A DNA stretch of 47,485 nt from an uncultured Ruminococcus sp. (GTDB taxonomy: Bacteria; Bacillota; Clostridia; Oscillospirales; Acutalibacteraceae): the NCBI GenBank assembly GCA_902773635.1, contig CACYFH010000008.1:1-47485 (forward strand). Direction: 5' to 3'. The first letter of the stretch is position 1. Every line of letters begins with the position of its first letter. The notes under the pieces are model-generated. The model made no database searches. It saw nothing but the letters and a program-made list of their open reading frames with translations, and was not told where the DNA came from. Shown one piece after another: positions 15,118 through 33,444 of the stretch. Position numbers and translations under genes: made by a program.

Positions 15118-15440
15118 AGACAATTAATAAAGGCTGTGACGAAGACGGTCAAGGCTGAGTTCTTCCAGAGAGTCGGCGGCTGGTGTGAGCCGACAGAACG
15201 AACCTGAGTACCCATCCCTTCTGAGCCGGGAGCCCGAACGACCAAAGGTTAAGTAGATACTCCCCGTGATTGCTGCGTAAAGGCATAGGGATTCATAACG
15301 GTTGAGATTGCCGCGGCATAGACGCCTCGCAATGACAATTCATATCGATCCTGAGAGCGGCAGTAGTAATACTGCAAATTGAGTGGTACCGCGGATGTGA
15401 TTTTCACACTCGTCTCAATGCTGAGACGGGTGTTTTTTTA
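15118..15440 (+). promoter_or_regulatory. T-box leader 1, specifier probably AUC (Ile)
   Basis: The stem I base GGCU (15132-15135) pairs with AGCC (15224-15227) around the K-turn GUGAC/UGA, and GAAG (15141-15144) pairs with CUUC (15218-15221). The triplet placed as in the two other leaders of this window, one base before that helix, is AUC (15214-15216). The T-box TGGTACCGCG lies at 15384-15393, and the terminator (ACACTCGTCTCA/TGAGACGGGTGT plus T7) ends at 15440. A REP-like hairpin sits between stem I and the antiterminator. Uncharged tRNA-Ile should raise expression of the synthetase gene. Other alignments would give CCC, so the Ile reading is an inference. Confidence 0.88.
15302..15335 (+). 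repeat. REP-like element inside T-box leader 1 (copy B)
   Basis: GTTGAGATTGCCGCGGCAT followed by AGACGCCTCGCAATGAC, nearly identical to the copy at 10634-10671. Ends ATTGC/GCAAT pair, so it can fold as an extra hairpin in the leader RNA. Confidence 0.85.
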
Positions 15441-15483
15441 TTGATTGCTCTACCCAATTTACTTCATATGGGAGGAAAACAAG

Positions 15484-17748
15484 ATGTCAGTAGTAGATAA
15501 TGAAAAGTTGATCGAGGTTGCGGAAAGAATCCGCGAGATGCGCGAGATCAGCGGCTTCTCCGTAGAGGAAATGGCGGATAAGACGGAGGTCACCGTCTCC
15601 GAGTATCTCGATTATGAGAACGGCACGGTCGATTTCCCCTTCACCTTCATCCACAAGTGTGCGCTCGCCTTTGGGCTGGGCATCACGGATATCCTCGAGG
15701 GTGAATCCGCAAGGCTGAGAAGCTACACCGTGACCCGACGCGGCGGCGGCAGACAGACCGCTGAGGAGCAGGGCATCTCCATCGTGAACGTCGCGCCGAT
15801 GTTCAAGAACAAGATCGCTGAGCCGTACTTCTGCAAGTACGATTACAGCGACGCTCTGCAGAACAAGCCCATCCATCTGACCAAGCACGCCGGTCAGGAG
15901 TTCGACTATGTTCTCTCCGGCAAGATGAAGATCCAGATCGGCAATAACTTTGAGGAGCTGCAGGCGGGCGACAGTATCTACTACAATTCCTCCACCCCTC
16001 ACGGCATGATCGCGATCGGGGGAGAGGACGTCACCTTCATCGCCATCATCCTGCCCGGTGAGAAGGATACGGAGGAGCTCGACGACGACGTCATGAAGGC
16101 GCATATCGCCAAGAAATCCGCGATCACCGGTCAGTTCGTCCGCACCCTTGAGGACGAGGACGGTTGCTTAAAGGCGATCAGCTTCAAGAATGAGGATAAG
16201 TTTAACTTCGCCTTCGACTGCGTGGACGCGATCGCGAACAACACCCCCGACAAGCTCGCCATGCTCCACATCGACCGCGATATGACCGAGCGCCGCTTCA
16301 CCTTCAACGACATGAAGCGCCGCAGTAACCAGACGGCGAATTACTTCAAATCGCTCGGCATCAAGAAGGGCGACCGCGTCATGCTGGTGTTGAAGCGCCA
16401 TTACCAGTTCTGGTTCTCCATGCTGGCTCTGCACAAGCTCGGCGCGATCGCGATCCCCGCGACGAACCAGCTTCTTGCGCACGATTTCGAGTACCGCTTC
16501 CAGTCCGCGGGCGTTTCCGCCATTGTTGCGACGGCCGACGGCTCCGTCGCCGATTCCGTCGATGAGGCGCAGAAGACCTCTCCGACCCTGAAAACCAAGA
16601 TCCTCGTCGGCGGTCAGCGTGAGGGCTGGCACGATTTCAACGCGGAGTTCGATATGTTCTCTACCCACTACTACCGTACTGTGGAGACACCCTGCGGCGA
16701 TGACACGATGGTCATGTTCTTCACCTCCGGCACGACTGGCTATCCGAAGATCGCCGAGCACAGCTATAAGTACGCTCTCGGTCATTATGTGACCGCGAAA
16801 TACTGGCACGGCGTAGACCCCGACGGTCTGCACTTCACCATCTCCGACACCGGCTGGGGCAAGGCGCTCTGGGGCAAGCTCTACGGTCAGTGGCTCTCTG
16901 AGGGCGCAGTATTCACCTATGACTTCGACCGCTTCCATGCAGACGATATCCTGCCGATGTTCAAGAAGTATCATATCACCACCTTCTGCGCACCGCCCAC
17001 CATGCTCCGTATGATGATCAAGGAGGATATCAGCAAGTACGACCTCTCCAGCATCATCCACATGACCACCGCAGGCGAGGCGCTGAACCCCGAGGTCTAC
17101 CGCCAATTCAAGAAGGCGACCGGGCTGAGAATCATGGAGGGCTTCGGTCAGACGGAGACCACCCTCACCATCGGAAACCTCTTCGGCACCACCCCGAAGA
17201 TCGGCTCCATGGGCAAGCCCACTCCCGGCTATGACATCGACATCGTCGACCCGGACGGCAATCCTGTTCCCGACGGCGAGCCGGGCGAGATCATTATCCG
17301 TACCGATAAAAAGGTGCCCTGCGGTCTGTTCAAGGGCTACTATAACAACCCGGAGGCGACCGCCGAGGCATGGCACGACGGCATGTACCACACCGGCGAT
17401 ACCGCATGGAGAGACGAGGACGGCTACTTCTGGTATGTAGGTCGTACCGACGACGTGATCAAGAGCTCCGGCTACCGCATCGGACCGTTCGAGATCGAGT
17501 CTGTCATCATGGAGCTGCCGTATGTCCTCGAGTGCGGAGTCTCTGCTGCTCCCGATGAAGTAAGAGGTCAGGTCGTCAAGGCTTCTGTCGTGCTCGTCAA
17601 GGGCACAGAGGGCACCGACGCCCTGAAGAAGGAGATCCAGGACTACGTCAAGAAGCACACCGCGCCGTATAAGTACCCGCGTATCGTCGTGTTCAAGGAG
17701 AGCCTGCCCAAGACGATCAGCGGCAAGATCCAGAGGAATAAGCTGTAA
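15484..17748 (+). CDS. XRE-cupin-acyl-CoA synthetase fusion (Ile T-box unit)
   Basis: A 754-aa three-domain protein. Residues about 9-73 form an XRE helix-turn-helix (SGFSVEEMADKTEVTVSEYL). Residues about 100-195 form a cupin (HAGQEFDYVLSGKM, GDSIYYNSSTPHGM). From about 235 it is a medium-chain-type acyl-CoA synthetase: TSGTTGYPK (414-422), SDTGWGKALWG, EGFGQTE, YHTGDTAWRDEDGY, and the catalytic Lys in KTISGKIQR. The start at 15484 follows GGAGGAAAACAAG. With a T-box upstream the protein should serve amino acid supply; activating 2-methylbutyrate for isoleucine synthesis fits. The regulator-like N-terminus may sense the acid or acyl-CoA and control its own or other genes. It is paralogous to the gene at 20971. 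Confidence 0.93.
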   Translation: MSVVDNEKLIEVAERIREMREISGFSVEEMADKTEVTVSEYLDYENGTVDFPFTFIHKCALAFGLGITDILEGESARLRSYTVTRRGGGRQTAEEQGISIVNVAPMFKNKIAEPYFCKYDYSDALQNKPIHLTKHAGQEFDYVLSGKMKIQIGNNFEELQAGDSIYYNSSTPHGMIAIGGEDVTFIAIILPGEKDTEELDDDVMKAHIAKKSAITGQFVRTLEDEDGCLKAISFKNEDKFNFAFDCVDAIANNTPDKLAMLHIDRDMTERRFTFNDMKRRSNQTANYFKSLGIKKGDRVMLVLKRHYQFWFSMLALHKLGAIAIPATNQLLAHDFEYRFQSAGVSAIVATADGSVADSVDEAQKTSPTLKTKILVGGQREGWHDFNAEFDMFSTHYYRTVETPCGDDTMVMFFTSGTTGYPKIAEHSYKYALGHYVTAKYWHGVDPDGLHFTISDTGWGKALWGKLYGQWLSEGAVFTYDFDRFHADDILPMFKKYHITTFCAPPTMLRMMIKEDISKYDLSSIIHMTTAGEALNPEVYRQFKKATGLRIMEGFGQTETTLTIGNLFGTTPKIGSMGKPTPGYDIDIVDPDGNPVPDGEPGEIIIRTDKKVPCGLFKGYYNNPEATAEAWHDGMYHTGDTAWRDEDGYFWYVGRTDDVIKSSGYRIGPFEIESVIMELPYVLECGVSAAPDEVRGQVVKASVVLVKGTEGTDALKKEIQDYVKKHTAPYKYPRIVVFKESLPKTISGKIQRNKL

Positions 17749-17928: not shown

Positions 17929-18507
17929 TTATGCTTGCTGACTTCTCAAATACGCATAGATGCTTTTGTCAAGCTCAGACAGCGTTTTAACGATGTATTC
18001 CTGCGGGCGCTCAAGACCGGTTGTAACCCAATCGGCAATCACGGCAAAACAGCCGTTCACATGATAGCGAATGACGCAGGTTAAAACACTTTCGGGATAA
18101 TCGGGACCAAACTGTTCCGATAAAAACAAGCCCTCATATCCGATAAACAGCTTGAGTATATTTTGGTAAAGACGGCTTGTGTTGTGGGGGCTGAATATCA
18201 TTTTGAAATAAACGGTATGCTCCGACACATAGTTTAATATATCATAATAAAACGTCGCGGGCGTTTTTTCACCGTGCTGAGTTAAAAGGACGCCTACCTC
18301 GCATAAAATTATTTTGGTCAGCTGCTCGTAAACATCATATATATCCAGAAAATGCTTGTAGAAGGTGACGCGGTGAATATCTGCCTTGTCCGAGATATCC
18401 TGAACGGTAATATGGCGGAGTTCTTTTTCGGTCATCAGCTCGGCAAGCGCCGTAAAGATTGCGTTCTGAGTTTTCGTAGCCCTGCGGTCGGGTTTTTTTA
18501 CAGCCAT
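17929..18507 (-). CDS. TetR/AcrR family transcriptional regulator
   Basis: A 192-aa repressor-like protein. The N-terminal TetR helix-turn-helix is clear (KTQNAIFTALAELMTEKELR, ITVQDISDKADIHRVTFYKHF), followed by an all-helical ligand domain. It is transcribed divergently from the exported-protein gene 220 bp away; their shared spacer holds repeated TGTAAATTAGGCTAC sites, its likely operators. Codon use is AT-richer than in the flanking synthetase genes, consistent with the pair having been inserted together. Confidence 0.92.
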   Translation of the reverse strand: MAVKKPDRRATKTQNAIFTALAELMTEKELRHITVQDISDKADIHRVTFYKHFLDIYDVYEQLTKIILCEVGVLLTQHGEKTPATFYYDILNYVSEHTVYFKMIFSPHNTSRLYQNILKLFIGYEGLFLSEQFGPDYPESVLTCVIRYHVNGCFAVIADWVTTGLERPQEYIVKTLSELDKSIYAYLRSQQA

Positions 18508-18636: not shown

Positions 18637-18727
18637 AATCGCGACTTGATTGAATATTGTTCACAGTGAAAAAAGGTGATATAGTGTAGTCAAGATCACA
18701 AAACAACAATCTACAGAGGTGATAATG

Positions 18728-20362
18728 ATGAAAAAGAATGGTATCAAAACAAGAATTATCGCAACTGCATTATCCGTAATCGCGGTATTTTCGGTAGGTT
18801 CAGCCACCATTGTACCGGCATCGGCTAACGTAGCAGCAGGGGCTTCGGTCTCCGGGGATGTAGTCGGAAGCATGGCAAAGACCGCCTTCGGGTATATCGG
18901 TAAAACATTACTTAGCGCAACAGGCATGAAGCTTGCCAATATGGCGATCGCTCCCGTATTTAACCTTATTCTCGGTTTGGACGACGGTCCCTCAAATCAG
19001 GAAGTTAAAGATGACATTGATAAGCAGGCGGCTGAGATTAAGGCTAAGGTCAACGAGGTTCTCACCGAGGTTCAAGCCCTTTCGGAAAAGGCAAATCAGT
19101 ATCACGGCGAAGAAATGCGTCAGCTTCAGATGATTGATTCTAACATCAGCACCTTGGAATTCAGAAAGCAAACCGACAAAATCGCCGAGGATTATGCGAA
19201 TATTTTTAAGCGTATCTCTCAGCATAAGGATAATTTCACCTGCGACGGCATGGGTAAGCTCAATAACACCACGTACAAGGCTTACAAGGAAATCATCAGC
19301 GACCCCGTTTGCAACGTAAGCAATCTGCAGGCTGATTTTGACGCGATGCTCAGCTTCCTTAAGGGCGAGCGCAGCTCAAACAATCACGAAAACGGCTATC
19401 AGCAGCTCACGTCCTACCTGCTTGACAGGGTGATTGCCGCCGACAAAAACGAGCACAGTTATACCAATACACCCGATTACCACAAGGTTATCAAGGGCAT
19501 CAATACAGAGATAACCTCTATGGAGGAGCACGCTATCCTTGACTTTTTTGCAATCAACGTACTGAACAATATGGCGAAAAAAGTAAAGGAATATGAAATT
19601 GACAATAACATCATCACGGTAAACGCGGATGAAGCGCCTTATACAAAGTATGAGAATACAGCTTCCGAAATGCTCCAAAGCCTCGGTACTATGGACGGTA
19701 TTTTCACAAAGGTTATCGAGGATAACAATAACAAGATTCTCGACATTGCTCCCTACACGCTTAGAACCACAAATCTAAATAAATCTACCGCAGAAAAGGG
19801 CTGCAGAAGCTTTATCGACGCTTGGTCGCAGGGCGTTGACTCGAGGTGTGATTTTACAATCGACTCCAACGGAAGATTTATCACCGTAAAAGCTGACGCA
19901 AAAAAAGGCTACAAGCTCGACGATAACGTAAAGGGTATCAATTCAAGCGGTGGTTTTGAGGTCCCCGAGCGCAGAAAGGTAGAATTGAATCTCGGCAGAG
20001 ATAACTCGAACGGAAGCACATTTGACTCCACCGCTAAGTCCGATCTCAACACCTTCTCGGTTTCAAGCAACTCTGATTTTACACTGACCTATACTTTCGT
20101 AAAGGGTGGCCGCCACGCGATTTATGTCCCGGGTAGCGCTGAAAACGCACAAATATACCATAACCGCGGCACCGTATACGGCACAACAGGCTCAGCGATC
20201 TGTATCGATTCCGGTGCAAAAAACACCAACGCAACGATCATCGGCGATTACAATTATGACTGCGCTGGCGGATTTGAGGATAAGGGCAGCAATACAACAA
20301 CGGGATATATCATCTTCTCTAAGATCGATCCCCCAAGCAAGGAACCCGACTGGTACACCTGA
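18728..20362 (+). CDS. Large exported protein of unknown function
   Basis: A 544-aa protein with a signal peptide (TRIIATALSVIAVFSVGSAT, cleavage likely after ASA at about 33). A glycine/alanine-rich hydrophobic stretch (about 42-85, ending APVFNLILGLD) is followed by a long helical, partly coiled-coil region (about 90-335) and a beta-rich C-terminal third with Gly/Asn/Ser-rich strands. A long helical body plus hydrophobic segment recalls alpha-helical pore-forming or surface proteins, but I recognise no family. The start at 18728 is set by AGAGGTG. It is probably controlled by the divergent TetR protein. Its composition is AT-richer than the flanking genes. Confidence 0.8.
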   Translation: MKKNGIKTRIIATALSVIAVFSVGSATIVPASANVAAGASVSGDVVGSMAKTAFGYIGKTLLSATGMKLANMAIAPVFNLILGLDDGPSNQEVKDDIDKQAAEIKAKVNEVLTEVQALSEKANQYHGEEMRQLQMIDSNISTLEFRKQTDKIAEDYANIFKRISQHKDNFTCDGMGKLNNTTYKAYKEIISDPVCNVSNLQADFDAMLSFLKGERSSNNHENGYQQLTSYLLDRVIAADKNEHSYTNTPDYHKVIKGINTEITSMEEHAILDFFAINVLNNMAKKVKEYEIDNNIITVNADEAPYTKYENTASEMLQSLGTMDGIFTKVIEDNNNKILDIAPYTLRTTNLNKSTAEKGCRSFIDAWSQGVDSRCDFTIDSNGRFITVKADAKKGYKLDDNVKGINSSGGFEVPERRKVELNLGRDNSNGSTFDSTAKSDLNTFSVSSNSDFTLTYTFVKGGRHAIYVPGSAENAQIYHNRGTVYGTTGSAICIDSGAKNTNATIIGDYNYDCAGGFEDKGSNTTTGYIIFSKIDPPSKEPDWYT

Positions 20363-20437: not shown

Positions 20438-20445
20438 AGTATTTA

Positions 20446-20519: not shown

Positions 20520-20579
20520 AGAGGTTGTTCATAAAATATTAACTCATACAGATTTGCGTTGACACTTGCAAATTCAAGC

Positions 20580-20608
20580 TTGACAAATCAAGAATCATGT
20601 GATAATAT
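20580..20608 (+). promoter_or_regulatory. Promoter of T-box leader 2
   Basis: TTGACA (20580-20585) and TAATAT (20603-20608) with a 17-bp spacer. The transcript would start near 20615. Confidence 0.8.
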
Positions 20609-20614: not shown

Positions 20615-20938
20615 AGTTAAAGGCTATGACGAAGAGGGCATGGTTGGTATTCACTCAGAGAAGGAGCGGCCGGTGAAAGCTCCCGTGATGAATTCCGTGT
20701 TTGTAGCTTCTGAGCCGGGGAGAAGAAAGCGTAATCGTGATTAGACCTCCTCCGTGATTGCTGCGTGAATGCATAAGGGTTAATATCAGTTGAATTGCCG
20801 CGGCATAAATGCCTCGCAATGATAATTTTTATAGACCCTGAGAGCGGCGGAACTGAGATATCAGACCGCAATTTGAGTGGTACCGCGGGTGAATCGCACT
20901 CGTCTCAAAGTAATGACTTTGGGATGGGTGCTTTATTA
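20615..20938 (+). promoter_or_regulatory. T-box leader 2, specifier probably GUA (Val)
   Basis: Stem I is laid out as in leader 1: GGCU (20622-20625) with AGCC (20713-20716), K-turn AUGAC/UG, GAAG (20631-20634) with CUUC (20707-20710). The triplet one base before CUUC is GUA (20703-20705), followed by a purine, giving Val. The T-box TGGTACCGCG lies at 20878-20887, and the terminator GCACTCGTCTCAAAGT/ACTTTGGGATGGGTGC at 20896-20938. The leader is homologous to leader 1 outside stem I and also contains the REP-like hairpin. UUU (Phe) is the alternative reading if the codon lies three bases further 5'. Confidence 0.88.
20789..20822 (+). repeat. REP-like element inside T-box leader 2 (copy C)
   Basis: GTTGAATTGCCGCGGCATAA followed by ATGCCTCGCAATGA, at the same place relative to the T-box as copy B in leader 1. 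Confidence 0.85.
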
Positions 20939-20970: not shown

Positions 20971-23259
20971 ATGGAAACCAAAAAGACTGCATTGGACATC
21001 AAGATCCAGGAGATGGCGGCGCGTATCAGAGAGCTCAGAGAGCTCGAGGGCAAGACCGTCGCTGAGATGGCGGCGTTCACCGACGTCTCCGAGGAGGAGT
21101 ACATCGCCTGTGAATCCGGCGAGCAGGATCTGAACTTCGCGTTCATCTACCGCTGCGCCCAGGCGCTGAACGTCAACGTGACGGAGATCATCGAGGGTAT
21201 CTCCCCGAACCTTAAATCCTACACCGTGACCCGTAAGGGACTGGGTCAGAAGGTGAGTCAGGCGCACGGCATGACCTATTATAACCTCGCCTACGCCTTC
21301 CAGAACCGTATCGCCGAGCCGCTGTTCGTCAAGAGCAAGTACAACCCCGACGCGCAGTCGAAGCCCATGGAGCTGACCACCCACGACGGTCAGGAGATCG
21401 ACATCGTTATCGAGGGTCAACTGATGGTGCAGGTCGGCGATCATAAGGAGATCTTAGGCCCCGGCGACACCATCTACTTCGATTCCAACACCCCGCACGG
21501 CGAGATGGCGGTCGGCGAGCAGGACTGCGTGTTCTACGCCATCGTCCTCAACCCGAAGGGCGAGCCCATCCCCGAGCTGACCCAGACCAAGGCGATCGCC
21601 GCCAAGAAGGTAGAGACAGCCGACCCGAAGGAGCGCGTTTGGAAGAAGTTCGTCGACTTTGAGGTCAACGAGAACGGCACGCCCACCAAGGTCACCTTCA
21701 AGAACGAGGATACCTTCAACTTCGGTTATGACGTCATCGACGCCATTTCCTATAAAGATCCCGAGAAGCTCGCTATGATCCACGTCTCTAAGGACAAGAC
21801 CGAGCGCCGCTTCACCTTTACCGATATCCGCCACGCCTCCTGCCAGTGCGCGAACTACTTCAAGTCGCTGGGCATTCGCAAGGGCGACCGCGTCATGCTG
21901 ATCCTGAAACGCCATTACCAGTTCTGGTTCGCGATCATCGGTCTGCATAAGCTGGGCGCGATCGCGATCCCCGCGACCAACCAGCTCCAGGCGCATGACC
22001 TCGAGTACCGCTTCAAGGCGGCGGGCGTCTCTGCGATCCTCTGCACCGGCGACGGCTACTCCGCCGAAGAAGTCGAGAAGGCGATGGAGAATTATCCCCA
22101 GATCAAGCGCATCATGGTCAACGGCGTGCGCGAGGGCTGGCGCAACTTCGACGAGGAATACAAGCTCTTCTCCTCTCACTTTGAGCGCAACGAGCATACG
22201 CCCTGCGGCGACGCGCCGATGCTGATGTACTTCACCTCCGGCACCTCGGGTTATCCGAAGATCGCCGCACATAATTATAAATTGGCTCTCGGTCACTTCA
22301 TGACCGCGAAATTCTGGCACAACGTCGACCCCGACGGCCTGCACTTCACCATCTCCGACACAGGCTGGGCGAAGGCGGCTTGGGGCAAGCTCTACGGTCA
22401 ATGGCTGTGTGAAGCGCCGATGTTTGTCTATGACTTTGACCGCTTCCATGCCGACGATATCCTCCCGATGTTCGCAAAATATCAGATCACGACCTTCTGT
22501 GCGCCGCCCACCATGCTCCGCATGATGATCAAGGAGGATATCAGCAAGTACGATTTCTCCTCCGTCAAGCGCATGACCACCGCCGGCGAGGCGCTGAACC
22601 CTGAGGTCTACTACCAATTTGAGAAGCTCACCGGTCTGCAGATCATGGAGGGCTTCGGTCAGACAGAGACCGCCGTCATCATCTGCAACATGATCGGCGC
22701 GCCGCATAAGATCGGCTCGATGGGCAAGCCCTCTCCGATCTATGACATCCACCTGCTCGACAAGGACGGCAACGACGTCCCCGACGGCGAACCCGGCGAG
22801 ATCTGTATCAATATCAGTAAGAAAATGCCCTGCGGTCTTGCAATGTACTACTACAATGATGTAGAGAGTACCCGCAAGAACTGGCGCAACGGCTATTACC
22901 ATACCGGCGACCTCGCGTGGAGAGACGAGGACGGCTTCTTCTGGTACGTCGGACGTGTGGACGACGTTATCAAGAGCTCCGGCTACCGTATTGGACCGTT
23001 CGAGATCGAGTCTGTCATCATGGAGCTGCCGTATGTTCTCGAATGCGGTGTTTCCGCGGCTCCCGACCCGGTTCGCGGTCAGGTCGTCAAGGCGTCCATC
23101 GTGCTCGTCAAGGGTACGGAAGGCACCGACGAGCTGAAAAAGGAGATCCAGGACTACGTCAAGACGCATACCGCGCCGTATAAGTACCCGCGAATCGTCG
23201 TCTTCCGCGAGTCCCTCCCCAAGACCACCAGCGGAAAGATACAGAGAAATCTTTTATAG
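20971..23259 (+). CDS. XRE-cupin-acyl-CoA synthetase fusion (Val T-box unit)
   Basis: A 762-aa paralogue of the gene at 15484 with the same order: XRE helix-turn-helix (about 12-75, GKTVAEMAAFTDVSEEEYI), cupin (about 105-200, TTHDGQEIDIVIEGQLMVQV, PGDTIYFDSNTPHGEM) and medium-chain-type acyl-CoA synthetase (TSGTSGYPK at 422-430, SDTGWAKAAWG, EGFGQTE, YHTGDLAWRDEDGF, KTTSGKIQR). The start at 20971 follows GAGG; an ATG at 20959 overlaps that site. The specifier GUA and the pathway context suggest isobutyrate activation for valine. A 40-odd-bp stretch near the C-terminal end is base-identical to the paralogue, hinting at gene conversion. Confidence 0.93.
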   Translation: METKKTALDIKIQEMAARIRELRELEGKTVAEMAAFTDVSEEEYIACESGEQDLNFAFIYRCAQALNVNVTEIIEGISPNLKSYTVTRKGLGQKVSQAHGMTYYNLAYAFQNRIAEPLFVKSKYNPDAQSKPMELTTHDGQEIDIVIEGQLMVQVGDHKEILGPGDTIYFDSNTPHGEMAVGEQDCVFYAIVLNPKGEPIPELTQTKAIAAKKVETADPKERVWKKFVDFEVNENGTPTKVTFKNEDTFNFGYDVIDAISYKDPEKLAMIHVSKDKTERRFTFTDIRHASCQCANYFKSLGIRKGDRVMLILKRHYQFWFAIIGLHKLGAIAIPATNQLQAHDLEYRFKAAGVSAILCTGDGYSAEEVEKAMENYPQIKRIMVNGVREGWRNFDEEYKLFSSHFERNEHTPCGDAPMLMYFTSGTSGYPKIAAHNYKLALGHFMTAKFWHNVDPDGLHFTISDTGWAKAAWGKLYGQWLCEAPMFVYDFDRFHADDILPMFAKYQITTFCAPPTMLRMMIKEDISKYDFSSVKRMTTAGEALNPEVYYQFEKLTGLQIMEGFGQTETAVIICNMIGAPHKIGSMGKPSPIYDIHLLDKDGNDVPDGEPGEICINISKKMPCGLAMYYYNDVESTRKNWRNGYYHTGDLAWRDEDGFFWYVGRVDDVIKSSGYRIGPFEIESVIMELPYVLECGVSAAPDPVRGQVVKASIVLVKGTEGTDELKKEIQDYVKTHTAPYKYPRIVVFRESLPKTTSGKIQRNLL

Positions 23260-23402: not shown

Positions 23403-24065
23403 ATGCACTACAAACGCTTAACAATCCTGTGCGGGCATTACGGCTCGGGAAAGACCAATATCGCCGTCAATATGGCGTTCGACCTCGCCGCTCAGCGCGA
23501 GAACGTCGCGATCGCCGACCTCGATATCGTCAATCCCTATTTTCGCTCTAAGGACAGCGAGGACGAGTTCAAAGCGAGGGGCATTCGCCTGATCTGCTCG
23601 GACTTCGCTTCCTCCAATGTCGACCTGCCCTCCATGCCCGCCGACCTATATTCCATCACCGACGACAAGAGCATGAGCGTTGTTCTCGATATCGGCGGCG
23701 ACGACAGGGGAGCTTACGCTCTCGGCCGTCTGCGCGATGCGATCAAGGCGGAGAACGACTACGAGATGCTCATGGTCGTCAATAAGTTCCGTCCGCTCAC
23801 CCCTGACGCAGAATCCACCATCGAGGTCATGCGCGAGATCGAATGGGCGTGCGGCATCCCGTTCACCGGGATCATCAATAACTCAAACTTAGCGGGGGAG
23901 ACCGACGCGGATGATGTCCTCGGCTCTCTGACTTACGCAGAAGAGGTCGCGAAGCTCGCCAACCTCCCGCTCGTCCTGACTACCGTAGAGGAGAAGCTCT
24001 ACGATGAGCTCAAGGACAAGATCAGCCCACTGTTCCGCTTGAAGCTGCAGGCGCGACCTGTTTAA
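23403..24065 (+). CDS. ParA/MinD-like P-loop ATPase
   Basis: A 220-aa SIMIBI-type nucleotide-binding protein. The Walker A is GHYGSGKTN (11-19), followed by IADLDIVNPYFRS and the Walker B-like VVLDIGGDDRG; VNKFRP is in the position of the base-recognition segment. Similar single-domain ATPases are found near 2-oxoacid:ferredoxin oxidoreductase genes in Firmicutes, and here the four-subunit complex begins 240 bp downstream. A role in cofactor delivery or regulation is possible but unproven. It is separated from that operon by a palindromic repeat. Confidence 0.8.
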   Translation: MHYKRLTILCGHYGSGKTNIAVNMAFDLAAQRENVAIADLDIVNPYFRSKDSEDEFKARGIRLICSDFASSNVDLPSMPADLYSITDDKSMSVVLDIGGDDRGAYALGRLRDAIKAENDYEMLMVVNKFRPLTPDAESTIEVMREIEWACGIPFTGIINNSNLAGETDADDVLGSLTYAEEVAKLANLPLVLTTVEEKLYDELKDKISPLFRLKLQARPV

Positions 24066-24304: not shown

Positions 24305-24517
24305 ATGTATATGGCAAAACTGACATTCAAGACCGACAACTGTAAGGGTTGTGCTCTGTGCGTTGACGCGTGCCCCAAGGGTATCCTGCAGATTGCCACA
24401 GACAAAATCAACAAAAAGGGTCATCATCCCGTTGAGTGCACCGATATGGAGCAGTGTATCGGCTGCGCGTCCTGCTACATGATGTGTCCCGACTGCATTA
24501 TCAAGGTAGAAAGGTGA
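24305..24517 (+). CDS. 2-oxoacid:ferredoxin oxidoreductase, ferredoxin-like (delta) subunit
   Basis: A 70-aa protein with two 4Fe-4S motifs: CKGCALCVDACPKG and CIGCASCYMMCPDC. It carries electrons between the TPP enzyme and free ferredoxin. The start is 24305 or 24311; both have AAGAAGG upstream. It is the first of four genes (delta, alpha, beta, gamma) with 9-bp or 1-bp junctions. This gene order is that of VOR/KOR-type complexes. Confidence 0.95.
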   Translation: MYMAKLTFKTDNCKGCALCVDACPKGILQIATDKINKKGHHPVECTDMEQCIGCASCYMMCPDCIIKVER

Positions 24518-24526: not shown

Positions 24527-25590
24527 ATGGCAGATAAGATTTTGATGAAGGGTAACGAAGCGATCGCCGCCGCCGCTATCAAAGCCGGCTGCATGCATTA
24601 CTTCGGTTATCCGATCACCCCTCAGACGGAGATCGCCGCATATATGGCGAAGGTCATGCCCAAGATCGGCGGCACCTTCCTGCAGGCGGAGTCTGAGATC
24701 GCCGCGATCAATATGGTCTACGGCGTTGCTTCCGCCGGTAAAAGAGTGATGACCTCTTCTTCCTCTCCGGGCGTTTCCCTGAAGGGTGAGGGTCTCTCAT
24801 ACCTCGCAGGCTCCGATCTCCCGGCCCTGATCGTTAACGTCCAGCGCGGCGGCCCGGGCTTAGGCGGCATCCAGCCCTCCCAGTCCGACTACTTCCAGTC
24901 CACCCGCGGTGGCGGTCACGGCGACTATCATATGATCGTTCTCGCTCCCGCTTCCGTCCAGGAGATGGCGGAGCTGACCGTCAAGGGCTTTGAGCTGGCG
25001 GATACCTACAGAATGACCGCGATGATTCTTGCGGACGGTACGATGGGTCAGATGATGGAGCCCGTTTCCATCGACGACCTCAAGGTCAATCCCGCTCCCG
25101 AGAAGCCGTGGGCGACCACCGGCACCAAGATGGCGCGCGAGCATAATATCGTCAATTCCCTGTCCCTCGTTCCCGAGGAGCTCGAGGAGCTGAACTTCAA
25201 GCGTTATGACCGCTATAAGGTCATCGAAGAGAATGAGACCATGTATGAGGAATATATGGTAGAGGACGCTGACATTGTTCTGGCGGCGTTCGGCATCGCG
25301 GCGCGTGTCAGTAAGAACGCTGTCGATGAAGCGCGCAAGCTCGGTATCAAGGCGGGTCTGATCCGTCCGATCACCCTCTGGCCGTTCCCGAAGGCGCCCT
25401 TCAAGGCTGCCGCTGAGCACGCGAAGGCGTTCATCTCGGTCGAGCTGAACATGGGTCAGATGATCGAGGACGTTATCCTCGCGACCGAGAGTAAGCGTCC
25501 CGTAACGCTCTGCAACCGCGCGGGCGGCATGATCCCCGACCCCGCTCAGGTACTGAATGCGATCAAAGAAGTAAACGGAGGTATTGCGTA

Positions 25591-25591
<1 letters not shown>
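24527..25591 (+). CDS. vorB: 2-oxoacid:ferredoxin oxidoreductase alpha subunit (VorB type)
   Basis: A 354-aa subunit carrying the pyrimidine-binding and transketolase C-terminal domains of the TPP enzyme. Family motifs are GNEAIAAAAIKAGC, FGYPITPQTEIA, the Glu in QAESEIAAI and NVQRGGPG. It most resembles the VorB type, annotated as 3-methyl-2-oxobutanoate:ferredoxin oxidoreductase. The enzyme interconverts a 2-oxoacid with acyl-CoA and CO2 using ferredoxin. With BCAA T-box synthetases on both sides, reductive carboxylation of branched acyl-CoAs is the likely direction. Its stop overlaps the beta start by one base. Confidence 0.93.
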
Positions 25592-26348
<757 letters not shown>

Positions 26349-26349
<1 letters not shown>

Positions 26350-26888
26350 TGAGCGCGAAAAATATGTTGTTTTCCGGCTTCGGCGGTCAGGGTATCCTCT
26401 TTGCCGGTAAGTTCATCGCTTACAAGGGTCTGATCGAGGAGAAGCAGGTAAGCTGGCTTCCTTCCTACGGCCCCGAGATGCGCGGCGGCACGGCTTCCTG
26501 CTCCGTCATCGTTTCCGATACTCCCGTCGGCTCTCCGATCGTCAGTAATCCCGATATCCTCGTCGCCATGAACCTGCCCTCTCTGGACAGATTCGAGAGC
26601 AAGGTCGTTCCGGGCGGTATGATCTTCGCGGATTCCACCCTGATCGAGCGCAAGGTCGAGCGCGACGACGTGAAGGTTTTCTACATCCCCGCGACCAAGA
26701 TGGCTTCCGACGAGAAGCTCGGCAACCTCGCCAACATGATCATCGTCGGCAAGCTCTTAAAGGAGACCGGCGACTACACCGAGGAAGGCATCAAGGCCGC
26801 CCTCGATAAGGTCATCCCCGCAAAGCGCGCTTCCATGAAGGACGTCAACTTCAAGGCGATCCAGATGGGCGCGGAGTATGAAGGATAA
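26349..26888 (+). CDS. 2-oxoacid:ferredoxin oxidoreductase gamma subunit
   Basis: A 179-aa gamma domain ([37 protein letters not shown]) of the pyruvate/ketoisovalerate ferredoxin oxidoreductase family, contributing CoA binding. It closes the four-gene operon. The aminotransferase gene follows after 171 bp of palindromic repeat sequence. Confidence 0.95.
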
Positions 26889-27059: not shown

Positions 27060-28124
27060 ATGGATATCAAAGTTACCTTAAATCCCAATCCCAAGGAGAA
27101 GCCTGCTGATACTTCTACCCTTGGCTTTGGCAAGATCTTCACCGACCACATGTTCCGCTGGAGCTGGAACAGCGAGAAGGGCTGGTACAATCCCCGCATT
27201 GTACCCTTTGAGCGCCTTTCCATCCATCCCGCTTCCACCGTTCTGCACTACGGTTCCGAGATCTTCGAGGGCTTAAAGGCATATCGCCGCGCTGACGGTA
27301 AGGTACAGCTTTTCAGACCCATCGAGAACATCCGTCGTATGAACAACTCCGCCGAGCGTCTCTGCCTGCCTCAGATGCCTGAGGAGGACGCGATGCAGGC
27401 GCTGATCGAGTTCGTCCGCTTAGAGCAGGATTGGACCCCCTCCGACAAGGGCACTTCCCTGTACCTCCGTCCGTTCCTCTTCGGTAACGACGAAAGCCTC
27501 GGCGTTCACGCTGTCCACAACGCGGAGTTCATCATCATCGCTTCTCCTGTCGGTTCCTACTACAAGGAGGGTCTCAACCCCGTCAAGATCATGATCGAGG
27601 ATCAGGACGTCCGTGCGGTCCGCGGCGGCACCGGCTACGCGAAGTGCGGCGGTAACTACGCGGCTTCCAACCGTGCAGGCGAGCGCGCTGAGCAGATGGG
27701 CTATTCTCAGGTTCTCTGGCTCGACGGCGTGGAGCGCAAGTACATCGAGGAAGTCGGCGCGATGAACGTCATGTTCATGATCGGCGACGAGATCGTCACC
27801 CCGAAGCTGACCGGCTCTATCCTGCCCGGCATCACCAGAAAGTCCTGCATTGAGCTCTTAAAGAGCGAGGGCTACAACATCAACGAGCGTCTGCTGCCCG
27901 TTGAGGAGCTCTCTCAGGCGATGGTCGACGGCACGCTCAAGGAGGCTTGGGGCTGCGGCACCGCGGCTGTCATCTCTCCGATCGGCGAGCTGATGTACAA
28001 GGGTCACAAGTACACCGTCAACAACAACGAGATCGGCGAAATGTCCCATCATCTGTACGATACCCTCACCGGTATCCAGTGGGGCGAGATCGAGGACAAG
28101 TTCGGCTGGACTGTCGAGATCTGA
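27060..28124 (+). CDS. ilvE: Branched-chain amino acid aminotransferase
   Basis: A 354-aa fold-type IV PLP enzyme of the longer BCAT class. Visible motifs are LHYGSEIFEGLKAYRRADG, YLRPFLFGND, TGYAKCGGNYAAS (the Lys in the GYAKCGGNYA segment is the PLP-binding candidate), EEVGAMNVMF and GSILPGITRKS. It interconverts Val, Leu and Ile with their 2-oxoacids using glutamate. The start at 27060 follows AAAGGAG; an in-frame extension to 26913 would translate the repeat. Its position directly after a VOR-type complex links 2-oxoacid production to amino acid formation. Confidence 0.95.
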   Translation: MDIKVTLNPNPKEKPADTSTLGFGKIFTDHMFRWSWNSEKGWYNPRIVPFERLSIHPASTVLHYGSEIFEGLKAYRRADGKVQLFRPIENIRRMNNSAERLCLPQMPEEDAMQALIEFVRLEQDWTPSDKGTSLYLRPFLFGNDESLGVHAVHNAEFIIIASPVGSYYKEGLNPVKIMIEDQDVRAVRGGTGYAKCGGNYAASNRAGERAEQMGYSQVLWLDGVERKYIEEVGAMNVMFMIGDEIVTPKLTGSILPGITRKSCIELLKSEGYNINERLLPVEELSQAMVDGTLKEAWGCGTAAVISPIGELMYKGHKYTVNNNEIGEMSHHLYDTLTGIQWGEIEDKFGWTVEI

Positions 28125-28267: not shown

Positions 28268-28296
28268 TTGACAATCCCAAATCTTTGTGTTATAGT
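28268..28296 (+). promoter_or_regulatory. Promoter of T-box leader 3
   Basis: TTGACA (28268-28273) and TATAGT (28291-28296) with a 17-bp spacer. Confidence 0.8.
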
Positions 28297-28302: not shown

Positions 28303-28577
28303 CAGCATAAATGCGTTGAAGAAATTATCGCTTTTACACAAGGTCTTTTCAGAGAGCTGTCGGCGGGTGCGAGACAGCAGGACAGCAGGAGCGAGTCTCA
28401 TTTCGGAGCAGAATCGGCGAAAATGCGCGCATTGAGTAACCGATTCCGGATTGTCCCGTTATCATGGCAGAGGGCTTGTCAGAGCCCGGTGAGCGACCGT
28501 ATGAAGTATACGGTAACCAGGGTGGTACCGCGAAGTAATTTCGTCCCTGAGGTCAATGACCTCGGGGCTTTTTATTT
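28303..28577 (+). promoter_or_regulatory. T-box leader 3, specifier CUC (Leu)
   Basis: Stem I has GAAA (28321-28324) pairing with UUUC (28401-28404), an AG bulge/terminal loop (CAGAGAGCUGUC...GACAGC) and the triplet CUC (28397-28399) followed by A, one base before the helix. CUC is a leucine codon and the first gene downstream is LeuA-like. The T-box AACCAGGGTGGTACCGCG ends at 28532, and the terminator CCCTGAGGT/ACCTCGGGG plus T5 lies at 28545-28577. Uncharged tRNA-Leu should induce the three genes downstream. Confidence 0.93.
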
Positions 28578-28688: not shown

Positions 28689-30059
28689 ATGAATCACATC
28701 AAAATTGCCGACACGACCTTATCGGACGTCAAGTCGAATCTCTCCTTCAAGCAGAAGCTGGAGATCGCCCGCAAGCTCGAGCGACTGGGCGTTGACGCGA
28801 TCGAGCTGCCCGAGATGGGCACAGCCCGCGCCGACAGCCTGCTCGTCCGCACGGCGGCTTCCTTCGTTAAAGGCTCCGTCCTGTCCGTCGCGGCGACTTC
28901 TTCTCCCGACGCGATCGACCGCGCGGCTGAGGCGCTCTCTACCGCAGCCCGTCCGAGGATCCGCGTCGAGCTGCCGATGACCTCTTCTATCATGGAATAT
29001 ACCCTGCATAAGAAGCAGAACAAGATGTGCGATTATGTGAGAACGATGGTCGAGAAGGCTAAGACCGTCTGTGATAACGTGGAGTTCGTCGCTGTCGACG
29101 CGACCCGCGCCGAGGAGGAATTTCTCAAAGAAGCGATCAGGACCGCTGTGGACGCGGGCGCTTCCTGCGTGACCTTATGCGACGACGCGGCGGTCTATCT
29201 GCCTGATGACTTCGCGGCGTTCGTCAGCCGTGTGACCGAGGGCGTTTCCGTTCCGGTCGGCGTTCTGTGCAACAATAAGAACGGTGTAGCGGTCGCGGCG
29301 GCGATCCTTGCCGTCAAGAACGGCGTTACCTGCGTCAAGACCTCCATCGGCGGCGAGAGCACCCCGCTGCGCACCTTCGGCACGCTGATCAAGGATATCC
29401 GCGAAAACTACGGCATCAGCTCCGAGCTCCGCACCACCGAGCTGCATCGCACCATCGACCAGATCGAGTGGATCATCAGCGGCAAGGCGCAGGCTGTCAC
29501 CACACGCGAGATCGTCGACGACGGCATCGTCTTACAGCTCAACGACACCATTGACACCGTCCGCGAGAATGTGGAGAAGCTCGGGTACGACCTCTCCGAC
29601 GAGGATATCGACAAGATCTACGCGGAATTCCGCCGCATCGCCCGCAAGAAGAACGTGGGCATCAAGGAGCTTGACGCTATCATCGCGTCCTCTGCGCTCC
29701 AGGTGCCCGAGACCTATACGCTGGAGAATTACGTCATCAACAGCGGCAACCGCATCAGCTCCTCCGCGCAGATCACCTTGAAGCGTGAGGGCAGATCGGT
29801 ACAGGGTATCGCGATCGGCGACGGCCCTATCGACGCCGCCTTCCACGCGATCGAGCAGATCATCGGCAGACATTTTGAGCTGGACGATTTCTCCATCCAG
29901 ACCGTCACCCAGGAGAAGGAAGCGATGGGCAACGCCCTCGTCCGTCTGCGCGTTGCAGGCAAGATCTACTCCGGCACCGGTCTCTCCACCGATATCGTCG
30001 GCGCGTCCGTCCGCGCGTATGTGAACGCGGTGAACAAGATCGTTTATGAAGAGGACTGA
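28689..30059 (+). CDS. LeuA-like protein lacking catalytic residues
   Basis: A 456-aa protein with the isopropylmalate/homocitrate synthase layout: HMGL-like TIM barrel (1-280), linker, and LeuA-type regulatory domain (about 355-455, VQGIAIGDGPIDAAFHAIEQ). The active site is altered: DTTLRDGEQ reads DTTLSDVKS (8-16), so the catalytic Arg is Ser. The metal motif HxHxDLG reads LCNNKNG (193-199), without either His. EDATR reads VDATR and ING reads IGG. It probably cannot do the LeuA reaction. The start at 28689 follows AGAGG. Under a Leu T-box and with an intact-looking leucine-binding-type domain, it could be a leucine sensor or scaffold; that is speculation. Confidence 0.82.
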   Translation: MNHIKIADTTLSDVKSNLSFKQKLEIARKLERLGVDAIELPEMGTARADSLLVRTAASFVKGSVLSVAATSSPDAIDRAAEALSTAARPRIRVELPMTSSIMEYTLHKKQNKMCDYVRTMVEKAKTVCDNVEFVAVDATRAEEEFLKEAIRTAVDAGASCVTLCDDAAVYLPDDFAAFVSRVTEGVSVPVGVLCNNKNGVAVAAAILAVKNGVTCVKTSIGGESTPLRTFGTLIKDIRENYGISSELRTTELHRTIDQIEWIISGKAQAVTTREIVDDGIVLQLNDTIDTVRENVEKLGYDLSDEDIDKIYAEFRRIARKKNVGIKELDAIIASSALQVPETYTLENYVINSGNRISSSAQITLKREGRSVQGIAIGDGPIDAAFHAIEQIIGRHFELDDFSIQTVTQEKEAMGNALVRLRVAGKIYSGTGLSTDIVGASVRAYVNAVNKIVYEED

Positions 30060-30085: not shown

Positions 30086-30112
30086 GAATATACGAAAGGT
30101 ATGTGAAAACCG

Positions 30113-32638
30113 ATGAAATTTTCATTTTCTACCAAGGGCTGGCATGATATTTCTTTTGAAGAATTTTGTTCAGCCGCTGAATATTTCAAGTTCGAGGGCA
30201 TCGAGCCCCATAATATCAACAACGCGACCTTCTCCGAGAAGAGCGGCGTGTTCCACGAGTACTCCGCCGCCGCGACCCTCCGCATGCTCTATGACCGCGG
30301 GCTGAGCCTGCCGTGCATCGACGTGATCAACGATATCGCGTCCGAGGAGCAGTTCGACGGCGCGATCGCGGAGATCGAGCGCTGTCTGCAGATCGCGTCC
30401 AACCTGCGTATTCCGAACATCCGTCTGCGCGCGGAGAGCCATGAGGATACCGAGAAGGCGGTACAAAACGTCAAGCGCGTGATCGAATCCGTCCTCGAGA
30501 CCGCCGAGCGCGACAAGATATCTCTATTGATCGAGACGCGCGGCATGTACGCCGATACAGCGCTCCTGCGCGATACGCTGGAGTATTTCGCTTCCGATTA
30601 TGTCGCGGCGCTGTGGAATATGTCCGCCGCGTACTTTACGGTAGGGGAAAGCCCTGCGAAGATCATCTCTAACCTCGGCGCGTATGTTCGCCACGTCCAC
30701 CTCAACGACGCGGTCAAGACCGACGACGGCATCGAGTACCGTCTCGTCGGCGAGGGTGACCTGCCGATCACCGAGACCATGAAGGCGCTGCGCTCCGTCA
30801 ACTACGACGGCTTTATCTCCCTCGTCTGGGACCCGAAGTGGTGCCCGGAGCTGGACGATATGGATATCATCTTCGCGCAGTTCATCAACTATATGAAGCA
30901 GTTCGCGGATACCTCAAAGAACGAATCCGCGCTCTACTGGAACAACCGTCACACGGGTAAGTTCGTCTGGAAGAAGGAGACGCTGATCGACGCGACCTTC
31001 TCCGACGTGCTCGACCGAATGGTTGAGGAGTTCCCCGACCAGCTCGCGTTCAAGTACACCTCTCTCGACTATACCCGCACCTACAGTGAATTCCGCGACG
31101 ACGTGGACGAGTTCGCCCGCGTGCTGATCGCTCTGGGCGTGAAGGCGGGCTCTCACGTTGCTGTCTGGGCGTCGAACGTGCCGCAGTGGTACATTTCCTT
31201 CTGGGCGACCGTGAAGCTCGGCGCTGTCCTCGTCACCGTGAACACCGCCTATAAGATTCATGAGGCGGAGTATCTCTTGAAGCAGAGCGACACCCACACC
31301 CTGATCATCACCGAGGGCGCGAAGGACACCAAATACGGCGATATTATCGCGCGTCTTTGCCCGGAGCTGGAGAACGTGAAGGAGGGCGGTCAGCTCCACG
31401 CAAAGCGCCTGCCGTTCCTGAGAAACGTCATCACCGTCGGCTTTGAGCAGAAGGGCTGTCTGACATGGGAGAAGGCGTTGGAGTACGCCTCCAAGACCCC
31501 GAAGAGTGAGGTCTACCGCATGGCGGCGGCTGTCGACAAGGACGACGTCTGCAACATGCAGTACACGTCGGGTACGACAGGCTTCCCGAAGGGCGTTATG
31601 CTCACCCATTACAATATTGTCAACAACGGCAAGAATATCGGCGACAGAATGGATCTGTCCACCGCCGACCGCATGATGATTCAGGTGCCGATGTTCCACT
31701 GCTTCGGCATGGTGCTTGCGATGACTGCAAGTATGACCCACGGCGCGACCGTCCTGCCCCTGCCGTATTTCAGCCCGAAGCCCGCACTCGCGTGCATCAA
31801 CAATGAGCATATCACCGCGTTCCACGGCGTGCCGACCATGTTCATCTCGCTTTTGGAGCATCCCGACTTCCCGAAAACCGACTTCTCCTACATGCGTACC
31901 GGCATCATGGCTGGCTCGCCCTGTCCGATCGACAAGATGCGCGAGGTCGTCGACAAGATGCACATGACCGAGATCACCATCGTCTACGGTCAGACCGAGG
32001 CTTCTCCGGGCTGTACCATGAGCTCGACCGAGGATTCCATCGAGGTTCGCGTGAATACGGTCGGTAAGGAATTGCCGGAGATCGAATGCAAGATCGTCGA
32101 TCCCGAAACGGGGGAGGAATGCCCGCCGAACGTCAACGGCGAGTTCCTCGCGCGCGGCTACAATATCATGAAGGGCTATTATAAGATGCCCAAGGAGACC
32201 GCCGAAGCCATCGACAAGGACGGCTGGCTCCATACCGGCGACCTTGCCTGCAAGACTGAGGACGGCTATTACAAGATCACAGGCCGCTTGAAGGATATGA
32301 TCATTCGCGGCGGCGAGAATATCTATCCCAAGGAGATCGAGGAATTCATCTACACCAACCCGAAGGTCTCCGACGTTCAGGTCATCGGCGTACCCGATGA
32401 GAACTACGGTGAGGAGATCATGGCGTGCGTCATCCTCAAGGAGGGAGAGACCATGACCGAACAGGAGATGAAGGACTATATCGCCGCGAATATGGCGCGT
32501 CATAAGGTGCCGCGTTACATCGACTTTGTCGATTCCTTCCCGATGAATGCCGCGGGCAAGATCCTCAAGTACAAGATGCGCGAGGACGCGGTCGAGAAGC
32601 TCGGACTGCAGAGGGCGAACAGTGTGGTGACGGCATGA
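30113..32638 (+). CDS. Fusion of xylose-isomerase-like TIM barrel and acyl-CoA synthetase
   Basis: An 841-aa two-domain protein. Residues 1-265 resemble AP-endonuclease-2/xylose-isomerase-like barrels. Of the usual metal ligands E141 (LLIETRG) and H196 (VRHVHLND) remain, while the usual Asp is N169 (ALWNM) and the usual Glu is V238 (ISLVWD), so the barrel is partly degenerate. Residues about 285-841 are a complete acyl-CoA synthetase with TSGTTGFPKGV (from 485), YGQTEASPG, LHTGDLACKTEDGY, IIRGGENIYPKEIEEF and the catalytic Lys in AAGKILKYKM. It is under the Leu T-box and its stop overlaps the next gene by 4 bp. By analogy with the other two units it may activate isovalerate. This domain pairing is not one I know. 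Confidence 0.9.
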   Translation: MKFSFSTKGWHDISFEEFCSAAEYFKFEGIEPHNINNATFSEKSGVFHEYSAAATLRMLYDRGLSLPCIDVINDIASEEQFDGAIAEIERCLQIASNLRIPNIRLRAESHEDTEKAVQNVKRVIESVLETAERDKISLLIETRGMYADTALLRDTLEYFASDYVAALWNMSAAYFTVGESPAKIISNLGAYVRHVHLNDAVKTDDGIEYRLVGEGDLPITETMKALRSVNYDGFISLVWDPKWCPELDDMDIIFAQFINYMKQFADTSKNESALYWNNRHTGKFVWKKETLIDATFSDVLDRMVEEFPDQLAFKYTSLDYTRTYSEFRDDVDEFARVLIALGVKAGSHVAVWASNVPQWYISFWATVKLGAVLVTVNTAYKIHEAEYLLKQSDTHTLIITEGAKDTKYGDIIARLCPELENVKEGGQLHAKRLPFLRNVITVGFEQKGCLTWEKALEYASKTPKSEVYRMAAAVDKDDVCNMQYTSGTTGFPKGVMLTHYNIVNNGKNIGDRMDLSTADRMMIQVPMFHCFGMVLAMTASMTHGATVLPLPYFSPKPALACINNEHITAFHGVPTMFISLLEHPDFPKTDFSYMRTGIMAGSPCPIDKMREVVDKMHMTEITIVYGQTEASPGCTMSSTEDSIEVRVNTVGKELPEIECKIVDPETGEECPPNVNGEFLARGYNIMKGYYKMPKETAEAIDKDGWLHTGDLACKTEDGYYKITGRLKDMIIRGGENIYPKEIEEFIYTNPKVSDVQVIGVPDENYGEEIMACVILKEGETMTEQEMKDYIAANMARHKVPRYIDFVDSFPMNAAGKILKYKMREDAVEKLGLQRANSVVTA

Positions 32639-33444
32639 GAAACGGATTTCAGATCATCGACTCGCACTGTCACATCTACCCGGAGAAGATCGCCGCGAAG
32701 GCGGTCGCGGGAACGGATACCTTCTACGGTACGGTCGCGAAATGCGACGGAACGGCAAACAGCCTGATGAAGATCAACGAGGAATGCGGTATCGACCACT
32801 CTCTGGTGCAGTCTGTCGCGACGACCCCCAAGCAGGTCAACTCAATCAATAGCTTTATTGCGGAAACTGTCGCGAATTCAGACGGCAGGCTGACAGGACT
32901 GGGCACGCTCCACCCCGACAGCGAGGATCAGCGCGCGGATGTACAGCATTTAATTGATTTAGGGCTCAGGGGCGTCAAGCTCCATCCCGATATCCAGCAG
33001 TTCAAGATCGACGATTACCGCTGCTTGAAGATCTATGAGCTGTGCGAGGAATTCGGTCTCCCGATCCTGATGCACACGGGCGATAAGCGCTATGACTACT
33101 CCAACACGAACCGCCTGATCCCGATTTTGGAGACCTACACGAACCTGACGATCATCGGCGCGCACATGGGCGGCTGGTCGCTCTGGGATGAAGCGAGCCT
33201 TGAGCTTGCGGGTATGCCGAACCTGTATGTCGACTGCTCGTCTACGATGTACTGGGTACCGCCGGAAAAGACCGCCGAGATCATCCGCAGGTATGGCGCG
33301 GATCGCGTTCTCTTCGGTACGGACTACCCGATGTGGCACCCGAAGGACGAGGTGGAGATGTTCTTCAACCTCGGTCTGGCCGATGATGAAATGAAGCTGA
33401 TCCTCAGCGAGAACGTCAAGAAGATATATCACCTTGATATATAG
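32635..33444 (+). CDS. Amidohydrolase-2 family TIM-barrel metal hydrolase
   Basis: A 269-aa protein of the amidohydrolase-2 (ACMSD/resorcylate-decarboxylase-like) family. The N-terminal metal motif HxH is in IDSHCHIYPEK, with further landmarks KLHPDIQQF, LMHTGDKR, IGAHMGGWS and the C-terminal GTDYPMW with the Asp ligand. Members hydrolyse or decarboxylate small acids. It is translationally coupled to the barrel-synthetase fusion and ends the Leu T-box operon, so a hydrolytic or decarboxylating step on an acyl intermediate is possible. No substrate is deducible. Confidence 0.9.
   Translation: MRNGFQIIDSHCHIYPEKIAAKAVAGTDTFYGTVAKCDGTANSLMKINEECGIDHSLVQSVATTPKQVNSINSFIAETVANSDGRLTGLGTLHPDSEDQRADVQHLIDLGLRGVKLHPDIQQFKIDDYRCLKIYELCEEFGLPILMHTGDKRYDYSNTNRLIPILETYTNLTIIGAHMGGWSLWDEASLELAGMPNLYVDCSSTMYWVPPEKTAEIIRRYGADRVLFGTDYPMWHPKDEVEMFFNLGLADDEMKLILSENVKKIYHLDI

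Follow-up and report, generated by a model that had tools for sequence, protein, structure and literature searches.

Why would a Ruminococcus place acyl-CoA synthetases behind leaders that read the tRNAs for isoleucine, valine and leucine? The question is raised by contig C8 (CACYFH010000008.1) of an uncultured Ruminococcus sp., a stretch of 47,485 nucleotides that was analysed whole and is called the window here; the genome that it belongs to comprises 1.66 Mb in 68 contigs and is 75% complete. Three T-box leaders in this window precede gene units that each contain a synthetase, and a 2-oxoacid:ferredoxin oxidoreductase of the VOR type and a branched-chain aminotransferase lie among them. Our answer, to which we give a probability of roughly 85%, is that the locus encodes a tRNA-controlled assimilation of isoacids that replaces ordinary synthesis of the branched-chain amino acids (BCAA), with the acid substrates and the direction of the VOR inferred from the genes. 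T-boxes sense amino acid availability via uncharged tRNA (PMC3766115). In the proposed scheme, uncharged tRNA-Ile, tRNA-Val or tRNA-Leu would let the matching T-box allow read-through of its terminator, and the matching synthetase would be made: ACS1 would activate 2-methylbutyrate, ACS2 isobutyrate, and a TIM-barrel fusion (TIM-synthetase) isovalerate. One shared VOR would then combine the acyl-CoAs with CO2 and reducing power from ferredoxin to give 2-oxoacids (reductive carboxylation), which IlvE would aminate to Ile, Val and Leu, and a LeuA that has lost catalysis would act as a leucine-binding feedback partner of the Leu arm.

The leaders themselves are the clearest element of the locus. 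All three cover the complete Rfam T-box model RF00230 (positions 1-219 of 219) and, like the promoter-like sites and, unless stated otherwise, the genes of the cluster given below, lie on the + strand: an Ile leader at 15127..15420 with specifier AUC at 15214-15216 (77.9 bits, E = 1.1e-15), a Val leader at 20617..20910 with specifier GUA at 20703-20705 (65.6 bits, E = 1.7e-12), and a Leu leader at 28307..28551 with specifier CUC at 28397-28399 (119.1 bits, E = 2.8e-26). The Leu leader exceeds the gathering score of 93; the Ile and Val leaders, which contain long inserts, fall below it, and this genome's trpB leader does so too at 79.2 bits. The specifier was taken to be the three nucleotides that precede Stem I's closing helix, a rule that, when the Rfam alignments of this genome's four other T-boxes were inspected by eye, returned UGC for cysE/cysS, ACC for thrS, UUC for pheS/T and UGG for trpB, fitting the downstream gene in four of four cases, with the genes named by eye from their translations. 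Promoter-like sites, identified by consensus match only, stand 5' of the Ile (TTGACT-16-TAGAAT, 15084..15111), Val (TTGACA-17-TAATAT, 20580..20608) and Leu (TTGACA-17-TATAGT, 28268..28296) leaders and rank third, fifth and first among the 28 such sites of the region. Immediately 3' of each leader, the same kind of scan places terminator-like hairpins at 15406-15433, 20896-20931 and 28545-28567, ranking fourth, first and third among 21 terminator-like sites that, taken together, show no enrichment over shuffled sequence. The first-pass annotation had read AUC, GUA and CUC T-boxes for BCAA tRNAs ahead of synthetase-containing units, and the full-length matches, the codons and the flanking sites bear this out.

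The pairing of codon and gene is also kept across relatives. A scan of genome contigs with ACS1 and ACS2 as queries confirmed 578 loci, and the best 80 of these, by title mainly rumen and gut genomes of Ruminococcus, Oscillospiraceae and Clostridia alongside some of Erysipelotrichaceae and Lachnospiraceae, were taken as the named loci. T-box core motifs in these 80 loci fall within 400 nt 5' of an ACS or LeuA-like match in 140 of 148 cases, and among the 126 ACS genes preceded by 450 nt or more of sequence, 108 have such a motif. The leaders that precede ACS or LeuA-like genes number 154 once duplicates are removed (three from the window, the rest from relatives); every one contains UGGU in the T-box, and the specifier was readable in 152, the remaining two having lost Stem I at a contig end. 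ACS leaders specify only Ile or Val (74 AUC, 53 GUA, 3 GUC), and LeuA-like leaders only Leu (18 CUC, 4 CUG). These readings combine two scripts and inspection: the first script failed on about a dozen leaders that the second script or the eye could read, and the second was wrong on seven of the 154, of which five were settled by the first script and two by eye with the pattern already known. Neighbouring genes were counted within 8.5 kb at the 52 of the 80 loci that extend at least 7.5 kb beyond the first ACS, referred to here as roomy loci; 41 of them hold a second ACS.

The first two synthetases are fusions in which a helix-turn-helix (HTH) of the Xre type and a cupin domain precede the synthetase, an architecture that refines the original description. 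ACS1 (15484..17748), the proposed 2-methylbutyryl-CoA synthetase of the Ile arm, and ACS2 (20971..23259), the proposed isobutyryl-CoA synthetase of the Val arm, are 64% identical. Their starts were chosen by eye, for ACS1 at 15484 rather than 15445 with GGAGG just 5' of it, and for ACS2 in place of 20959 from the open reading frame (ORF) tool. Their best NCBIfam model is MbcS (NF047394), at 444.3 and 415.4 bits under a cut-off of 850. The best relative of solved structure for both is 3etc (628 and 601 bits), listed under the name 'AMP-binding protein', which we take to be Macs of Methanosarcina acetivorans (MacsMa). This identity is consistent with the residue numbers in PMC10455477 at a constant offset of 23, and MacsMa prefers 2-methylbutyrate, a preference that the first reading had cited for a Methanosarcina medium-chain acyl-CoA synthetase. 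Many relatives have ACS2 directly after ACS1. In-frame stops occur in HTH-cupin-synthetase matches of G024, G028, G033 (second copy), G038, G081, G106, G116, G147 (second copy) and G190, which are either decaying copies or sequencing errors.

The codon carried by a leader agrees with the ancestry of the synthetase behind it. In a FastTree phylogeny of 149 synthetases, 122 of them with a readable leader, a single branch (support 99) parts the 73 Ile-labelled from the 49 Val-labelled proteins without exception; ACS hits shorter than 500 aa, with stops, below 44% identity or below 400 bits were left out, and ACS1 of the window is absent as a row. Since the label changes only once, which corresponds to one duplication, the tree demonstrates long retention of the pairing rather than repeated origin. 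Of the 22 alignment columns that are nearly non-overlapping between the two clades, 20 lie in the HTH-cupin part or the linker, and this distribution suggests, at the level of sequence, a paralogue-specific second layer of regulation in the HTH-cupin part. The other two lie in the synthetase. Column 459 (ACS1 numbering) is Gly in 73 of 73 members of the Ile clade and Ala in 49 of 49 of the Val clade, the only synthetase column with complete separation; at column 462 the Ile clade has Leu (72) or Met (1) and the Val clade Met, Ala or Thr, and all 122 proteins have Trp at column 463. Column 459 sits four residues before the pocket residue Trp259 of MacsMa, the Trp of 'GWGKCVW' (PMC10455477 numbering with the offset of 23). 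The equivalent WIT motif of fungal Acs surrounds the alkyl group (PMC8383264). At the position of column 459 MacsMa has Gly, the acetyl-CoA synthetase 9g79 Val and ACSM2A Ile. Gly may thus suit 2-methylbutyrate, Ala isobutyrate and Val acetate, although ACSM2A, medium-chain by name, has Ile there, so the Gly/Ala/Val series is not general.

Genes for the shared later steps follow ACS2. They comprise a VorD-like ferredoxin subunit of 70 aa with two Cys clusters (24305..24517), recognised from its translation and its conserved place in relatives; VorB, the alpha subunit of a 2-oxoacid:ferredoxin oxidoreductase (24527..25591; NF005507, 540.1 bits, above the cut-off of 399); a thiamine pyrophosphate-binding beta subunit (25591..26349; PF02775, with 2-oxoacid oxidoreductase beta models below cut-off); a gamma subunit (26349..26888; PF01558, gamma models below cut-off); and IlvE, a branched-chain aminotransferase of type II (27063..28124; NF009897, 474 bits against a cut-off of 307, and TIGR01123, 399 against 250), whose start was chosen by eye and whose scores come from a longer ORF starting at 26913. 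Oxidoreductase and aminotransferase lie between the second and third leaders, where the first-pass annotation had them among the three. Because the consensus scan finds no strong + strand terminator between ACS2, VOR and IlvE, the latter two may belong to the Val T-box transcript, the limits of which are inferred. VorB occurs nearby in 50 of the 52 roomy loci; L057 and L075 are the only two that have an ACS and lack it.

The Leu unit is built differently. The third leader had been said to precede a synthetase-containing unit; the synthetase stands there in second place, and the gene directly after the leader is a catalytically degenerate LeuA that the first reading missed. This pseudo-LeuA (28692..30059, start chosen by eye, 28629 in the ORF tool) has a predicted isopropylmalate synthase fold and the LeuA regulatory domain (LeuA_dimer, PF08502, 106.7 bits), and reaches at best 279 bits against LeuA NCBIfam models with a cut-off of 532. 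The catalytic, metal-binding HxH pair is missing in 31 of 31 pseudo-LeuA proteins, the window's included (one keeps the first His and one the second), and RDGxQ is missing in all 28 that cover it, with Arg kept in five; the replacements at these motifs vary among members, and all 31 retain the regulatory-domain motif YxGxGxSTD[IV]. Two canonical LeuA controls from relatives, aligned alongside, keep both HxH and RDGxQ, and RDGNQ is visible in the printed start of five more LeuA-type frames, which were unaligned. The predicted fold of the window's protein is that of isopropylmalate synthase (predicted local distance difference test score, pLDDT, 86; predicted template-modelling score 0.60); the top Foldseek match is LeuA of M. 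tuberculosis, and the leucine-bound structure 3fig is among the matches. The regulatory domain of LeuA binds leucine. We regard pseudo-LeuA as probably a leucine-binding sensor and feedback partner of the Leu arm.

Behind it stand the TIM-synthetase (30113..32638), a fusion of a barrel of the xylose-isomerase/epimerase type with an acyl-CoA synthetase and the proposed isovaleryl-CoA synthetase, and an amidohydrolase-2 family protein with a conserved HxH (32635..33444), followed by a terminator-like site at 33516-33533. The N-terminal domain of the fusion is confidently predicted as a barrel of the xylose-isomerase/sugar-epimerase type (pLDDT 90.6). Among the best 80 loci, whose flanks are short, a LeuA-like gene occurs in 33, a TIM-synthetase in 28 and both in 26. 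This association (26 of the 33 LeuA-like loci), the conserved polar residues of the barrel and the HxH of the amidohydrolase would also fit a LeuA-like protein that is a genuine enzyme with changed chemistry and makes up, together with barrel and amidohydrolase, a new leucine route that has no isovalerate arm. We consider this unlikely: a new active site would not be expected to lose HxH and RDGxQ throughout and to fill their places so variably, and the acyl-CoA synthetase motifs of the fusion are intact.

If isoacid assimilation stands in for BCAA synthesis, the ordinary genes should be scarce where the units occur, and ilvC, ilvD and leuBCD had been singled out from the start as the place to look. 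Two HTH-cupin-synthetase matches are present in eight genomes of the same genus within a set of 39 (G000, G004, G011, G012, G014, G016, G017 and G023; G004 and G011 each have one incomplete ACS copy, and in G014 one copy is divided between frames). No hit to IlvC, IlvD, IlvA or LeuB-grade protein was found in any of these eight, which include the 75% complete source genome; of the seven others, four are 95-100% complete. A LeuC-sized gene was likewise not found in the eight, apart from a possible case in G011, a 243-aa piece of an aconitase-family protein where a contig ends; the other frames of that family measure 621-663 aa (none in G000). The LeuC size and the LeuB-grade limit of 440 bits were set after the hits had been seen. 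Across the 39 genomes, ilvC occurs in three of 18 with an ACS match reaching into the cupin part versus 19 of 21 others. In an order-wide set of 197 genomes at least 90% complete, which overlaps the 39, ilvC is present in one of the 19 that hold at least two ACS matches, in 17 of the 50 that hold a single match and in 95 of the 128 that hold none (two or more versus none, Fisher 7e-9, kinship ignored); these ACS counts are lower bounds from the best five candidates per genome, and some second matches are partial. A full TIM-synthetase (15 of 39 genomes, two with an in-frame stop) and a LeuB-grade hit (over 440 bits, 22 of 39) never occur together, LeuB-grade being found in none of the 15 TIM-synthetase genomes versus 22 of the 24 others (Fisher 5e-9, kinship ignored). 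G034 combines a 305-bit Iso_dh hit with a TIM-synthetase, and G024 and G028 have neither a TIM-synthetase nor a LeuB-grade protein in full. G037 (93% complete) has ilvC, ilvD, ACS1 and the Leu unit, with no hit to ACS2, IlvA, CimA, LeuB-grade or LeuC-sized protein, the pattern expected if ACS2 serves Val alone.

These distributions also bear on the possibility that the synthetases feed branched-chain fatty acid synthesis for membrane lipids, with BCAA imported and the T-boxes coupling lipid priming to BCAA supply. MbcS, which has that role in S. aureus (PMC10026030), is the best NCBIfam model of ACS1 and ACS2, albeit below its cut-off. Lipid priming would not need VorB, however, which accompanies nearly all roomy loci; genomes with the units mostly lack the ordinary BCAA genes, and three amino acids each have a separate leader, which together make this explanation very improbable. 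That IlvE and VOR instead degrade BCAA to acyl-CoAs, with the synthetases running in reverse, is scarcely credible: VOR enzymes can run in either direction and in fermenters often serve catabolism, yet T-boxes induce on uncharged tRNA, that is, in starvation, AMP-forming synthetases are ill suited to ATP conservation, and most carriers would then lack an internal source of BCAA.

Several observations nonetheless weigh against isoacid assimilation as a replacement for BCAA synthesis. The source genome is only 75% complete, and shared kinship among the genomes means that the Fisher values overstate independence. G010 has ilvA, ilvC, ilvD, LeuB and LeuC together with an ACS1 behind an Ile T-box (locus L119, ACS1 alone), and no VOR occurs in the 9 kb read around that ACS1; G100 combines two ACS matches with ilvC. 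Among the order-wide genomes, 33 of the 50 with a single ACS match lack ilvC and also a demonstrated Val synthetase, and 33 of the 128 with no ACS match lack ilvC as well. At the level of the leaders, 18 of the 126 ACS genes with sufficient upstream sequence have no T-box core motif, 11 of the 52 roomy loci have no second ACS nearby, and the match of clade and codon depends on a single duplication.

Other features of the window are more peripheral. A P-loop ATPase of the CbiA/ParA-like type (23403..24065, from its domain match) lies between ACS2 and the VOR genes and recurs in 50 of the 52 roomy loci. Between ACS1 and the Val leader are a TetR-like frame, identified by eye (17929-18507, - strand), and a 547-aa frame with a signal-like start and no Pfam or NCBIfam match (18719-20362, + strand). 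A mir-395 match at 20440-20523 (30 bits against a gathering score of 56) was rejected as an AT-rich hairpin. A SAM riboswitch at 10722-10817 (76.1 bits) precedes an S-adenosylmethionine synthetase gene at 10993, and a scan of viral contigs confirmed no relative.

We lean, with modest confidence, toward a wider generalisation, in which three tRNA-gated salvage arms, with a T-box and an acid-specific synthetase for each, replace ordinary BCAA synthesis in many gut Clostridia, the Gly or Ala beside the pocket Trp sets Ile/Val selectivity, and the dead LeuA is a leucine sensor. If isoacid assimilation operates as proposed, the need of rumen fibre digesters for isoacids, long known, would acquire a genetic basis, and amino-acid-specific tRNA sensing would be shown to be wired to the activation of carboxylic acids. 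Carriers of the cluster would be misread as BCAA auxotrophs, and gene-based predictions of auxotrophy for gut bacteria may fail there. Because the leaders label each synthetase with an amino acid, they predict its substrate and make the pathway directly testable.

How new is this arrangement? The first-pass annotation had called it a new regulatory logic, which stands with a reservation. The literature searched, outside which Vitreschak 2008 and Gutierrez-Preciado 2009 lie, yielded no mention of acid-specific synthetases for Ile, Val and Leu under T-box control; counted over main texts, CoA and ferredoxin each have 0 occurrences in the T-box survey PMC2494555, as have acyl-CoA, branched-chain and ferredoxin in PMC3766115. 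A partial precedent exists in Geobacter, for which Table 2 of PMC2700814 places a conserved element ahead of iorAB-paaK under tryptophan and also gives a Leu T-box for leuA. As in the window, an amino-acid-related leader there precedes a 2-oxoacid:ferredoxin oxidoreductase and a CoA ligase; the element is not called a T-box there, however, and concerns one aromatic amino acid. The Geobacter leuA shares the Leu T-box, but on an ordinary leuA. The leaders of the window share Stem I, specifier codon, T-box core and terminator with other RF00230 riboswitches, and what sets them apart is that their targets activate carboxylic acids.

The chemistry has a long history. Rumen anaerobes carboxylate and aminate isobutyrate, 2-methylbutyrate and isovalerate to Val, Ile and Leu (Allison 1966; Robinson and Allison 1969; Allison and Peel 1971, as cited in PMC7356843); the conversion proposed here is the same, and the window adds to it candidate genes, among them three synthetases proposed to be acid-specific, and control by T-boxes. 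The nearest acyl-CoA synthetases, MbcS of S. aureus and Macs (3etc), both act on 2-methylbutyrate, and MbcS also on isobutyrate. MbcS uses isovalerate poorly (PMC10026030), which fits a separate synthetase family for Leu. Unlike these enzymes, ACS1 and ACS2 have an N-terminal HTH-cupin part, form two paralogues with Ile and Val leaders and score under the MbcS cut-off. Pseudo-LeuA retains the predicted fold and the C-terminal regulatory domain of LeuA, whereas its catalytic motifs are lost and no LeuB-grade gene accompanies it in the 15 TIM-synthetase genomes. Set beside a chemistry that is itself long known, a LeuA that has shed its catalytic motifs and kept its regulatory domain is what is new here.

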